Shown here: piece by piece, positions 35,791 to 40,292 of the stretch
Layout: every line of letters starts with the position of its first letter
Position numbering within the stretch: position 1 is the first letter of the stretch
Source of the DNA: Spirosoma taeanense
Lineage (GTDB): Bacteria; Bacteroidota; Bacteroidia; Cytophagales; Spirosomataceae
Length of the DNA: 64,000 nucleotides
Assembly: GCF_013127955.1 (NCBI RefSeq)
Contig: NZ_CP053435.1
Span: forward strand, 4,526,001-4,590,000
Direction of reading: 5' to 3'
Position numbers and translations under genes: made by a program
Notes under the pieces: model-generated
Database searches by the model: none
What the model was told of the DNA's origin: nothing
What the model saw: only the letters and a program-made list of their open reading frames with translations

Positions 35791-36186
35791 ATGAAAACTC
35801 TCATCAAACCTCTGCTCATTGCCCTGTCACTCGGTTTTACTACTTCCGCTGCTTCGTTCGCTGAAACCAAGCCTATCCTTCGTCCAGCGGCTGCGGCCTC
35901 GTATAAAGTAGGCATGTATCCAGCGGTTGACGGTAAATTCGTCGTTCTGCTCGATAAGCAGCAGGGGGGCCACGTTGATATTCAGTTGAAATCTGATGAT
36001 GGCACGGTGCTTTACACTGAACATCTTGGCAAGAAACAGATGAAAAGCCGGCGGAAACTGAACCTGAATGACCTTGAAGACGGCCTGTACACAATTGAAG
36101 TTACCAACGGGGTTGAAACAACCAGACAAACCGTAACGATCTCGACCAGGGTTGCCACATCGGGCCGCACCATTTCGCTGAATTAA
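35791..36186 (+). CDS. Small exported protein with beta-sandwich (secretion-tail-like) fold
   Basis: A 131-residue protein with signal peptide MKTLIKPLLIALSLGFTTSA and ASFAET cleavage region. The mature part is about 100 residues of alternating strands: SYKVGMYPAVDGKFVVLLDK, HVDIQLKSDDGTVLYTEHLG, RKLNLNDLEDGLYTIEVTNG, TRQTVTISTRV. This is the Ig-like pattern of DUF3244 and T9SS type A tail domains, here standing alone. It lacks the terminal Lys-rich run of a sorting tail, so it may be a small periplasmic or surface protein. Its promoter has an operator-like dyad, hinting at specific control. Confidence 0.8.
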   Translation: MKTLIKPLLIALSLGFTTSAASFAETKPILRPAAAASYKVGMYPAVDGKFVVLLDKQQGGHVDIQLKSDDGTVLYTEHLGKKQMKSRRKLNLNDLEDGLYTIEVTNGVETTRQTVTISTRVATSGRTISLN

Positions 36187-36663: not shown

Positions 36664-38172
36664 ATGGCTAAGCTAACGTACAGGAATTATATCCTCCTGC
36701 CTAAATCAGGTATCCGGTTTCCTGATGACCAGATTGTTTCGCAAACCGAACAGGTTTTTGCGAAACTAACTACCAGCGCCCGTCTGGCCGACGTACTGGC
36801 CGAGCCACCCACCGATCAAGCTGTTATCCTAGACACCATTGGCCGACAGGGTGCCAAGCTTATTCGTTTGCCGGAGAATGAACTGCCTAACCTGCGGGCG
36901 CAGATGCCGGGTTTGCGGATTGTGCCGGAGGTCTTCTTTTTCCCACAGCGGTATCGGGTTGAAATTAAGCAGAAACCTCAGCCGACAGCCGCGCAAGTCA
37001 CTACGAGCATTCGAATTATGTTGAAAGACGCCAAAACGGGTAAGCCGGTAGGTGGTGCGACGGTGGTCGCGTTTACAGACTTCGATGGGCGCGCGGGCGA
37101 ACAGGCTACCTCCGATGCTAAGGGGGTTGTGCGGCTCAGAAACGTCGGCAACCGTCTGCTTGATCAGCTTTACGTTTATCCTAAAGTGGGGTACTGGAGC
37201 TTCTGGAAACAGAAGATAACGCTTAAAAACAACGACGTGCTGAACATTCAGCCGGTTTCGCTTACGTATCCCGACGCCAAGAACTTTTTCTATCCGCCCG
37301 CGCCCGCTGGTCAACCGGCCGGCAATGGCGTGAAAGTCGGCGTCATTGACACTGGCGCCGGGCCGCACCCCGATCTGACCATTTCGGGTGGCGGCAGTAC
37401 CGTAACGGGCGATAATCCCAGCGATTTTAATGATGTGGATGAACATGGCACGCACGTCTCGGGCATTATTGCCGCCCGGGGCGCCCCACCAACTGGCGTA
37501 CGCGGAGCAGCCCCGGACGTAAAGCTCTACGTGTATCGGGTGTTTGCCCGAAATAGCCAGGGCGCGTCAAATTTTGCCATTATTAAAGCCATTGAGCAGG
37601 CCGTTGCTGACGGCTGCGACCTGATCAATATGAGCCTGGGGGGCGGCCCCGCCGACGACGCGACCAAAGAAGCCATCAGCTTTGCTCATGAAAACGGTAC
37701 GCTTTGTTTTGTAGCGACGGGTAATGACGGGCGACAGTCGGTCAGCTTTCCGGCGTCGTTTTCGCTATCCTTAGCGGTAGGGGCCATGGGCCGTAAAGGC
37801 ACGTTTCCCGCAAATACCACCGACGCCCCCAACGTGGCGGCTCCTTACGGAAAAGACAAGAAAAATTTTGTAGCGGGTTTCTCCAATATCGGCCCTGAGG
37901 TGGATTTCATTGCGCCGGGCGTTGGCATTATCTCATCAGTACCTGGTGGTTATGCTCCCCTGAGCGGTACGTCAATGGCCTGTCCGATGGCTACGGGCGT
38001 AGCGGCCAGACTTCTGTCTGGCGAACCGACGATTCTGAACATGCCCCGTAACACTGCCCGCGCCGAAGCTATGGTCCGCTTTCTGGCAACAAAGGTTAAA
38101 TCGCTGGGATTTGGCCCAACCTTCGAAGGAACCGGCATGTTATTCGTCGATACGCAATCGCCCATAACCTGA
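36664..38172 (+). CDS. S8-family subtilase without signal peptide, with inserted beta-sandwich domain
   Basis: A 502-residue subtilase. Residues 1-105 resemble an I9-type propeptide (RNYILLPKSGIRFPD, then QGAKLIRLPENELPNLRAQ and MPGLRIVPEVFFFPQRY). Residues about 115-200 form a carboxypeptidase-regulatory-like beta-sandwich (IRIMLKDAKTGKPVGGATVV, FDGRAGEQATSDAKGVVRLR). The protease domain follows: Asp in GVKVGVIDTGAGPHPDL, His in VDEHGTHVSGIIAARG, Asn in FVATGNDGRQSVSFPASF, and Ser in LSGTSMACPMATGVAARL; all four are intact. No signal peptide or sorting tail is seen, so it may act inside the cell or leave by another route. A small I9-like gene begins 14 bases downstream and is probably its partner. 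Confidence 0.88.
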   Translation: MAKLTYRNYILLPKSGIRFPDDQIVSQTEQVFAKLTTSARLADVLAEPPTDQAVILDTIGRQGAKLIRLPENELPNLRAQMPGLRIVPEVFFFPQRYRVEIKQKPQPTAAQVTTSIRIMLKDAKTGKPVGGATVVAFTDFDGRAGEQATSDAKGVVRLRNVGNRLLDQLYVYPKVGYWSFWKQKITLKNNDVLNIQPVSLTYPDAKNFFYPPAPAGQPAGNGVKVGVIDTGAGPHPDLTISGGGSTVTGDNPSDFNDVDEHGTHVSGIIAARGAPPTGVRGAAPDVKLYVYRVFARNSQGASNFAIIKAIEQAVADGCDLINMSLGGGPADDATKEAISFAHENGTLCFVATGNDGRQSVSFPASFSLSLAVGAMGRKGTFPANTTDAPNVAAPYGKDKKNFVAGFSNIGPEVDFIAPGVGIISSVPGGYAPLSGTSMACPMATGVAARLLSGEPTILNMPRNTARAEAMVRFLATKVKSLGFGPTFEGTGMLFVDTQSPIT

Positions 38173-38186
38173 TAGCAACTGAAGCC

Positions 38187-38432
38187 ATGGCGCAGGAACG
38201 ATACATCTTGCATTTCAAAGGCGACTTACCCCTGCCCGCCGAGGATCTGCAACTGATTCAGGCGAAAACGCAGCTAATTGATGCGAGCCAGAAGGCCTTG
38301 CTGGTTGAGCTGAATGCGGAGGAAGACCCCGATGAGCTGGCCGGCCAGCTGGCCGGCTGGACAGTCAGCAAAGAATCCCATTACCCAATTCCAACAACTC
38401 GCCCGACGGTCCGGAAACCACCGGAGCCTTAG
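38187..38432 (+). CDS. Small protein resembling a stand-alone I9 propeptide/inhibitor
   Basis: An 81-residue protein with no signal peptide. Its predicted order of elements is strand (RYILHFKGDLPL), helix (AEDLQLIQAKTQ), two strands (LIDASQKALLVELNA), helix (DPDELAGQLAGW), strand (TVSKESHYPIP), which is the beta-alpha-beta-beta-alpha-beta layout of I9 subtilisin propeptides and of the short stand-alone inhibitors of that fold (75-80 residues). A proline-rich tail follows. It starts 14 bases after the subtilase stop and should be on the same transcript. Acting as inhibitor, chaperone or both for that protease is the natural hypothesis. No homology search was possible, and the fold assignment is inference. 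Confidence 0.7.
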   Translation: MAQERYILHFKGDLPLPAEDLQLIQAKTQLIDASQKALLVELNAEEDPDELAGQLAGWTVSKESHYPIPTTRPTVRKPPEP

Positions 38433-38633: not shown

Positions 38634-40292
38634 ATGCTCAGTATGCAATCCATTTCTTCGTCTGATGCCTGGTCTTCGCTGGCGACCAACCAAGAGTTCT
38701 GGTCTTCGCTGGCGCAGACACTTCTGCCGCCTTACGTCAATACCTGCCGGTGGTTTGCCGGTAAGGCCCGGCAACAAACCGGCTTTTCGGCGAAGTCTGT
38801 CCACACGCTGCCTCTATCCGACGGCGACAGGGCGTATCTGCTGATTCTGGAAGCCCTCTATGCTGATGGAATTCCCGAAAATTACCTGTTACCGCTCTCG
38901 TTCGTTGCCGATCACACGGCTCATAGCCTTCCCTTCCAGTTAGCCGATGTACCCGGTAAAGGCCGGGTGGGCGAGGTTACCATTGGTGGGCAGACCGGTA
39001 TTCTGATCGACGCTATCTACGACGAACGGTTCCGGCAGGCCTTGTTTACGGCCATTGGCCAGAGCCAGACCTATCCGCAGCCCGATGGCCAGATCACCTT
39101 CCTGCGGGGTAAAGGGCTGGACGAGAACGAGGGGCAGTTACCTTCCCAGGTATTGCCGGTCGATTCGAGCAACTCGGCGATGACCTTCGGCGACAAATAT
39201 TTCCTGAAGCTGTACCGTAAGCTCTTCAGCGAGACGAATCCCGAAGTAGATATGGTGGCCTTTCTGACCGACATCGGCAATTTTGACCACATCCCGGCTT
39301 TTGGTGGCAGTATTGTCTGGCAGCACGACAACACCCCCGATATTACACTTGGTATGATGCAGCGGATGGTTCAGAACGACAAGGATTCGTGGGCGCAAAC
39401 CGGCGATTACCTCAACGATTTTCTGTATGCGGTGCCCCAGCGTCTGTTCGCCATTCGCGAAGACGTATTCGAAAAAGTCGAGTTGCTTGGCCGCCGAACG
39501 GGCGAGATGCACTGCGCACTTTATAAGCCGGATGCCGAAGCAGCTTTTGCGCCCGAACCATTTACGGACGAATACCGGGAGTTCCTGATCCGGCGATTTG
39601 AGGACCTGCTCGATCGCCGGTACGCACTGCTGATCGACAATTATACTAAACTTGACCCGCAGGCGCAGCGGCTGGCATGGGTATTCATGGAAGCCAAAGA
39701 AATTATTGATACCTTCATTGCCGACTTCCGGACCCGTCCGTTTGGTTCGCAGCGCATCCGCATTCATGGCGACTATCACCTCGGGCAGGTGCTCGCTACC
39801 GAAAACGATTTTGTTCTGATTGACTTTGAAGGCGAACCGGAAAGCAGCATTACCGATCGAAAAATCAAGCACTCGCCCCTGAAAGACGTAGCGGGTATGA
39901 TCCGGTCATACCACTATGCCGTCAGTGCCAAACTCTTTAACTCCGCCGAAACGGAGGACCTCGACCCTGTACACCTGCAGCGCGTGTCGGATCGTTGGTT
40001 TTACCTCATCCGCGACACGTTCGTAGACGCTTATCTGGATACGTTTGGCACGCCCCACCCGCTATTTAAAAACAATAACGAGATCAACTTCCTGCTACTG
40101 ATCTATCTGCTCGAAAAAGCGGTCTACGAACTGGGCTATGAGATCAGCTACCGGCCATCGTGGGTTAAAATCCCGCTCAAAGGCATCATTGACGTCGTTC
40201 GTGAGATTGAGAAAATCCGCCTGAGCGAGGGAAACCTAACGCCCGACGTTCCCCTGCTGCAAACCGGGTTATTACAGGATAAACCGTCGTAA
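38634..40292 (+). CDS. Maltokinase
   Basis: A 552-residue aminoglycoside-phosphotransferase-fold kinase that makes maltose 1-phosphate. The N-terminal cap has the family's CRWFAGKARQQTGFSAK; the kinase core has YFLKLYRKLFSETNPEVDM, the catalytic RIHGDYHLGQVL, metal-binding LIDFEGEP and LKDVAGMIRSYHYA. The C-terminal KAVYELGYEISYRPSWVKIP is seen in maltokinases including those fused to trehalose synthase. Here it stands alone, with no trehalose synthase or GlgE in the window. Maltose 1-phosphate would feed GlgE-type glucan synthesis; glgB lies two genes downstream. Confidence 0.88.
   Translation: MLSMQSISSSDAWSSLATNQEFWSSLAQTLLPPYVNTCRWFAGKARQQTGFSAKSVHTLPLSDGDRAYLLILEALYADGIPENYLLPLSFVADHTAHSLPFQLADVPGKGRVGEVTIGGQTGILIDAIYDERFRQALFTAIGQSQTYPQPDGQITFLRGKGLDENEGQLPSQVLPVDSSNSAMTFGDKYFLKLYRKLFSETNPEVDMVAFLTDIGNFDHIPAFGGSIVWQHDNTPDITLGMMQRMVQNDKDSWAQTGDYLNDFLYAVPQRLFAIREDVFEKVELLGRRTGEMHCALYKPDAEAAFAPEPFTDEYREFLIRRFEDLLDRRYALLIDNYTKLDPQAQRLAWVFMEAKEIIDTFIADFRTRPFGSQRIRIHGDYHLGQVLATENDFVLIDFEGEPESSITDRKIKHSPLKDVAGMIRSYHYAVSAKLFNSAETEDLDPVHLQRVSDRWFYLIRDTFVDAYLDTFGTPHPLFKNNNEINFLLLIYLLEKAVYELGYEISYRPSWVKIPLKGIIDVVREIEKIRLSEGNLTPDVPLLQTGLLQDKPS

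Follow-up and report, generated by a model that had tools for sequence, protein, structure and literature searches.

The window, i.e. the whole stretch of 64,000 nucleotides that was analysed (Spirosoma taeanense, NZ_CP053435.1, positions 4,526,001 to 4,590,000; genome size 5.7 Mb), carries on its forward strand a gene for an S8 protease followed by a small gene of 81 codons. Two flanking genes, for a 131-residue protein and a maltokinase-like protein, mark the edges of a presence/absence site. The features are as follows.

35791..36186, + strand: 131-aa protein whose leader is hydrophobic; left edge of the presence/absence site (ORF, hydropathy, flank comparison)
36664..38172, + strand: S8 (subtilase) protease, 502 aa, catalytic residues D229, H261, N354 and S437, no signal peptide seen (ORF and Pfam)
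36664..36954, + strand: propeptide-like (I9-like) N-domain of the protease, residues 1-97 (hhalign; without a Pfam I9 match)
36814-36939, + strand: block of the N-domain homologous to the small protein, residues 51-92 (hhalign)
37009..37248, + strand: Ig-like / CarboxypepD_reg-like domain, residues 116-195, limits approximate (Pfam E 1e-5, below cut-off)
37321..38064, + strand: Peptidase_S8 catalytic domain, residues 220-467 (Pfam)
38187..38432, + strand: 81-aa stand-alone propeptide-like protein (ORF 14 nt past the protease stop; orthologues, AF2 model, hhalign, dN/dS)
38388..38402, + strand: C-terminal tail motif I-P-T-T-R of the small protein, residues 68-72 (conservation; proposed to enter the active site)
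38634..40292, + strand: 552-aa maltokinase-like protein, right edge of the presence/absence site (Mak_N_cap above cut-off)

The protease matches Peptidase_S8 (PF00082) in Pfam with 157.9 bits against a cut-off of 21.8 (E 4.5e-46 for the whole protein), and the D-H-N-S motifs (Asp, His and Ser plus the oxyanion Asn) that define the S8 family are present in all 16 orthologues. An earlier note on this DNA, which described an intact S8 protease lacking a signal peptide and an 81-residue reading frame 14 bases beyond it, is borne out on both points. It overlooked the Ig-like / CarboxypepD_reg-like domain, which is located between the N-domain and the catalytic domain and is matched at E<=1 in 15 of the 16 orthologues, giving the order N-domain, Ig-like domain, S8 catalytic domain. 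The matches of the protease to NCBIfam are all below their respective cut-offs. Three PADLOC models (subtilase, and IetS twice) match residues 201-466, 221-358 and 216-327; these regions belong to the catalytic part, and the matches do not show a role in defence. For the full-length protease, the AF2 model is poor (pLDDT 50).

Signal peptides were judged by a hydropathy scan rather than SignalP, with seven signal-bearing controls that give values of 1.78-3.16. The corresponding values are 0.63 for the window protease and 1.09 for the small protein, and values of at most 1.24 from the aligned start are found for all 16 small proteins and for 14 of the 16 proteases, the longest frames of these 14 proteases still giving at most 1.22. 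The window protease is thus probably cytosolic, judging from its hydropathy. For the proteases of G009 and G021, the value from the aligned start is 1.8; in their longest frames, which begin 41 (G009, L103) and 28 (G021, L105) codons earlier and include a hydrophobic stretch, it rises to 2.38 and 2.28, values in the control range, and a leader may therefore be present on these two proteases. The proteases of G030, G009, G021, G026 and G005 were cut to the aligned start, and the aligned Met was likewise taken as the first residue of those small proteins whose frames are longer. In G005 (L110), which encodes the most divergent Spirosoma protease, the frame stays open for approximately 84 codons ahead of the aligned start.

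The apparent absence of a leader distinguishes the window protease from the inspected I9-bearing S8 proteases of its own genome. Ten PF05922 domains are above the cut-off in this genome, some of them close together (4196-4198 kb and 4820-4821 kb), and the eight that were inspected are all in S8 proteases with lipoprotein-like leaders, as judged by eye.

The small protein and its relationship to the N-domain

The dN/dS values of the small gene are 0.06-0.24 in six pairs, which indicates that the gene is real and rules out a spurious reading frame; purifying selection acts on the protease gene and the small gene alike. The distance matrices of the protease and the small protein are correlated (r 0.79), a value that common descent by itself could give.

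Profile searches do not assign the small protein to a known family. No match at E<=1 is obtained against Pfam, NCBIfam or PADLOC. The I9 profile (PF05922), which the earlier note named as a check, gives no match at E<=1 with the window proteins or with any of the 16 members of either orthologue alignment, and the small protein is therefore rejected as a plain PF05922 member. PF12690 (IPI/BsuPI) gives no match at E<=1 either, and the model of the small protein is alpha/beta rather than an all-beta Ig fold. When used as queries in PDB profile searches, the small protein and the N-domain each return matches at chance level alone.

The AF2 model of the small protein has a mean pLDDT of 80.7, with a tail of lower confidence, and contains strands at residues 3-10, 29-33, 37-43 and 58-62 and helices at residues 18-27 and 48-54. 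The resulting order, E-H-E-E-H-E, is the I9 order, as the earlier note had predicted; it is a ferredoxin-like order that is common and not specific to I9. A Foldseek search with this model yields no match at E<=1e-3. Among the 50 matches listed, the propeptide of subtilisin BPN' (3cnq_P) is at rank 4 with a probability of 0.99 and the top query TM-score (0.55), and ORF2, the chaperone of the Aeromonas protease ASP (3wqb_B), is at rank 37. In VIA-align, prosubtilisin (3whi) is at rank 49 with a Z of 6.9, many unrelated ferredoxin-like folds score equally or higher, and the top matches are SBDS, NikR, HMA and ribosomal S6 domains. The I9-like fold suggested in the earlier note thus stands as a topology in the predicted model, whereas the structural lists, in which propeptides are tied with unrelated proteins, do not single it out.

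A specific relationship emerges from profile-profile comparison with the N-domain of the protease. When 16 Spirosomataceae sequences of the small protein are compared with 16 of the N-domain, hhalign gives a probability of 83% and an E of 8e-6; for the cross-phylum sets (12 and 14 sequences), the probability is 89%, with an E of 2e-6 and a score of 36.0 over 40 columns. In 200 column shuffles of the cross-phylum comparison, a lenient control, the score is 9.7 +/- 1.8 with a maximum of 15.7, and the Ig and catalytic parts, used as controls, score 8-11. The common block, approximately V-[IL]-D-[ST]...LV...L....P-G-[LW]-x-[IV]-x-P-E-x-[FY], extends from strand 2 to strand 4, and the homology is limited to the C-terminal half of the N-domain. 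These alignments strongly support the identification of the small protein as a stand-alone paralogue of the propeptide-like N-domain, and with it the proposal in the earlier note of a second propeptide-like domain acting in trans.

A more distant likeness to I9 domains is also detected. In a comparison with 29 Bacteroidota I9 domains, the scores are 19.5 for the N-domain (shuffle maximum 15.9) and, by a narrow margin over the shuffles, 18.8 for the small protein (maximum 18.7), with 100 shuffles each; the Ig and catalytic parts, again as controls, stay within the range of their shuffles. Both alignments fall where the fold predicts, over 14 columns at strand 3/helix 2 for the N-domain and over 11 columns at strand 1 for the small protein. 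Restricted to the first eight I9 domains, the comparison gives hhalign scores of 19.0 and 15.0, respectively. The small protein and the N-domain thus appear remotely I9-like, with I9 membership unproven; of the I9-like propeptide that the earlier note placed at the N-terminus of the protease, the remote likeness is retained, without a match to PF05922.

The C-terminal tail of the small protein is conserved. The pattern [ILVP]-P-x-[TV]-[RKQ] is present in 21 of 24 small proteins, the exceptions being the three from Paracoccus, and a proline follows the motif in 12 of the 16 Spirosomataceae proteins (TRP in 11, TQP in one). A proline at P1' would resist cleavage. Eight residues ahead of the T of the tail motif is a Glu that is invariant in the 16 Spirosomataceae proteins, the same spacing as that between Glu69 and the cleavage site in BPN'. 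Three Rhizobiaceae rows lack this Glu, which is replaced by Met in the small protein and by Leu or Val in the cis N-domain; this parallel loss, confined to one lineage, is a hint that both domains may meet the same surface. For subtilase propeptides, acidic residues (Glu69 and Asp71 in BPN') are described as capping helices of the catalytic domain, with the C-terminal tail entering the active-site groove (in the relevant part of PMC6993865). As a sign of tail-mediated inhibition of S8 proteases, the conservation of the tail is only suggestive.

Distribution and genomic context of the gene pair

Within the genus set of 36 genomes, 11 encode a near-full-length protease, and the same 11 encode the small protein (E<=3e-10), with gaps of 14-387 nt between the two genes. 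Within the family set of 222 genomes, the N-domain plus Ig part is found in 16 (E<1e-40), and the same 16 carry the small protein, which has no match at E<=0.01 in the other 206. Four of the 20 family genomes initially matched (E 6e-4 to 1e-3) were left out; three of them align within residues 102-207 (Ig-like) and one to residues 89-139. The two genes are adjacent and on one strand in all 16 genomes, which include Spirosoma, Fibrisoma, Fibrivirga and two MAGs (one of Spirosomataceae), and an artefact of a single genome is therefore rejected. Adjacency in relatives, on which the earlier note had made its pairing depend, is thus retained in 16 of 16 family genomes and, as described below, in 11 of 11 plasmid records.

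A further paralogue of the small protein, an orphan of 102 aa whose C-terminal segment is hydrophobic, is encoded in G009 (G009:C12:420496, L111) and in G021 (G021:C3:136249, L112); the 14 kb around each contain no reading frame that carries an S8 motif set, and one isolated GTSVA. A search of contigs with the small protein alone gives no confirmed locus, and a search with alignment A2 gives eight loci, all already in the set. Searches of 395 class genomes with profile A1 reveal no further pair, with two partial matches outside the own genome (E 0.002 and 0.005), and 390 class genomes searched with profile A10 yield none. In 395 phylum genomes searched with profile A3, four matches outside the own genome are obtained (E 0.01-0.1), and none of the three that were translated is an S8 protease by eye. 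Because no other pair appears in these class and phylum samples, the distribution of the pair within Bacteroidota is patchy.

Ten of the 11 Spirosoma pairs share one site, ahead of the same maltokinase-like gene, and other downstream genes lie beside the pair in G150, G151, G145, G146, G194 and G005. With the maltokinase-like protein as the query, 33 of the 36 genus genomes give a match, and 30 loci are obtained, 21 of which are from genomes lacking the pair. In 10 of these 21 loci, the maltokinase-like gene is immediately preceded by the gene for the 131-aa protein, with approximately 170-560 nt between the matched ends; since the flanking genes adjoin, both genes of the pair are missing there as a unit. 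The upstream gene is unmatched within the inspected region (<=1.5 kb) in the other 11 loci, which are uninformative on the absence of the pair. In a tree of the maltokinase-like proteins, the pair-bearing genomes are found in more than one place, although the rooting is unreliable because the row of G017 comes from a shorter locus and has a very long branch. The 131-aa protein itself (35791-36186), which is encoded upstream of the site both where the pair is present and where it is absent, has a weak match to Por_Secre_tail (E 1.1e-4, below cut-off).

When the first 232 residues of the protease serve as the query against 72,556 plasmid records, 11 matches are obtained, all in Alpha- and Betaproteobacteria: Agrobacterium (four), Paracoccus (three), Rhizobium (two), Pararhizobium (one) and Variovorax (one). 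The identity in the N-domain plus Ig part is 28-31% for the 10 of 11 matches listed, the eleventh being Rhizobium CIAT894; among the matches listed, the three from Paracoccus cover residues 55-231 only, and the others cover 97-98% of the query. In seven of the eight plasmid records inspected, a hypothetical protein of 80-83 aa is encoded 2-15 nt past the protease gene. In the eighth, plasmid 3 of Variovorax sp. WDL1, the small gene (L126:6445-6699) is missing from the PLSDB gene table; it shares 17 nt with the end of the protease gene. For the three further Agrobacterium records, the match to the small protein lies 0.8 kb beyond the matched N-terminal part, the same arrangement that the inspected Agrobacterium record has, and the pair is present in all 11 records.

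Directly after the pair, pTiCFBP5877 (L128:6962-9061) and pRheCIAT894b (L132:5962-8091) encode a Trypsin_2-Endonuclease_NS fusion; by annotation, the remaining six of the eight inspected plasmid loci have none. On the other side of the pair in L128 are a CHAT-domain protein and a second S8 protease, a neighbourhood that resembles those of conflict systems. In viral contigs, no pair was confirmed; 31 phage records match the Variovorax protease, and the 10 matches listed begin at residue 207 or later, i.e. in the catalytic part.

Possible function of the pair

The reading that we consider likely is that the two genes form one module, in which a cytosolic subtilase with a propeptide-like N-domain in cis is inhibited, and perhaps helped to fold, by a paralogue of that domain in trans, with its tail in the active site. 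The small protein would pack its sheet onto the catalytic domain, and its conserved proline-containing tail (Y-P-[IV]-P-T-T-R-P) would lie in the active-site cleft. The protease would then stay inactive, perhaps with assisted folding, until a signal or the loss of its partner frees it, and the cis N-domain may serve folding. Because neither partner in the window has an export signal, a dedicated inhibitor would shield the cell from its own protease. In favour of this reading are the co-occurrence, adjacency and joint absence of the two genes, the purifying selection on both, the occurrence of the pair in Proteobacteria, the homology of the small protein to the N-domain, the propeptide order of its predicted strands and helices, the high rank of 3cnq_P in Foldseek and the conserved tail. 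Counting against it are the missing PF05922 match, the weak structural matches, the restriction of the homology to half of the N-domain, the orphan paralogues and possible protease leaders in G009 and G021, and the loss of the tail motif in Paracoccus and of the Glu in Rhizobiaceae. The restraint of cytosolic subtilases in bacteria is little known beyond the Bacillus-type Isp enzymes, according to PMC6220982, and the pair would be a clear and testable case of one propeptide-like domain used both in cis and as a separate gene. The domain is conserved between phyla and is unrecognised by Pfam and NCBIfam, and the small-gene family is currently annotated as hypothetical or overlooked; looking beside signal-less subtilases may be a route to more protease-inhibitor pairs. 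In the literature searched, mostly papers outside subscription, no published account of this pair was found.

By analogy, the known system that appears closest in logic is Plasmodium SUB1-ProM, which is described as encoded beside subtilase genes and as probably located in the parasitophorous vacuole, where SUB1 acts (PMC6993865, in part). The relevant part of the same source presents three I9 stand-alone proteins that resemble propeptides though without significant sequence similarity. In SUB1-ProM, the I9 inhibitors of Pleurotus, yeast and Arabidopsis, and TgMIC5, a protease with a cis propeptide is likewise accompanied by a separate propeptide-like protein (PMC6993865, same part); those systems are eukaryotic, whereas the Spirosoma pair is bacterial, probably cytosolic and a two-gene unit. 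The Bacillus-type Isp enzymes offer a second parallel, as intracellular subtilases curbed both by a proline-dependent pro-segment and by a separate inhibitor. The pro-peptide of Isp inhibits through a proline-containing LIPY/F motif, according to the section of PMC6220982 that treats it. IPI/BsuPI, which inhibits Isp1, is reported to have an Ig fold and a gene that is not near a subtilisin gene, and its authors question its intracellular location (PMC3901451, in the part concerned). The pro-segment of Isp1 differs from the N-domain in consisting of 18 residues, and IPI/BsuPI differs from the Spirosoma small protein, which has an alpha/beta model and an adjacent gene.

A somewhat unlikely alternative is that the main role of the small protein is that of an external folding chaperone, comparable to the role of ORF2 towards the serine protease ASP of Aeromonas sobria, with inhibition as a passing by-product. 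ORF2 is reported to inhibit ASP with an IC50 of 84.3 nM and to place its C-terminus at the ASP catalytic site (PMC5638518, in the part describing the complex). The gene order, in which the small gene immediately follows an S8 gene, and the logic of a C-terminal tail match ASP/ORF2 as described there (PMC5638518), and ORF2 (3wqb_B) is in the Foldseek list; in the PDB profile searches, 3wqb has no match at E<=10. However, ASP is extracellular and is described, in the passages of PMC9549277 that deal with its maturation, as lacking a propeptide of its own, whereas the two proteins of the window show no leader and the protease already possesses an N-domain homologous to the small protein, which would make a second chaperone redundant.

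It is unlikely, although worth stating, that the pair is a portable toxin-antitoxin-like or defence module, in which a short trans propeptide restrains a cytosolic zymogen-like subtilase. Once a signal, for example phage attack, removes the inhibitor, the subtilase would cut host proteins or trigger a partner effector, for which the neighbouring trypsin-nuclease fusion would be the candidate in the two Rhizobiaceae plasmids. This fusion, which follows the pair in Agrobacterium pTi (CFBP5877) and Rhizobium CIAT894, recalls the core of 'System 3' of Kaur et al. 2020, conflict systems that combine NucA with trypsin, sometimes S8, as outlined in the section of PMC7159879 on these systems. By contrast, the nearest PF01223 match to the window pair is 1.2 Mb away. 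Endonuclease_NS (PF01223) occurs in all 36 Spirosoma genomes, not near the pair, and in the 11 pair-bearing genomes none is within 97 kb of it on its contig, the nearest being at 97 kb in G019.

That the small protein is instead an adaptor, sensor or substrate with a generic ferredoxin-like domain, rather than a blocker of the active site, is quite improbable: the best VIA-align matches (SBDS, NikR, HMA and ribosomal S6 domains) and the absence of a PF05922 match are in its favour, but specific homology to the N-domain of the protease together with a conserved tail would be unexpected for such a protein. Finally, functionally unrelated neighbours kept together by local synteny are extremely improbable, since the single site before the maltokinase-like gene that is shared by 10 of 11 Spirosoma pairs would fit such an arrangement, but the pair is kept with different downstream genes in the six genomes named above and in Proteobacteria, and elsewhere the two genes are missing jointly.
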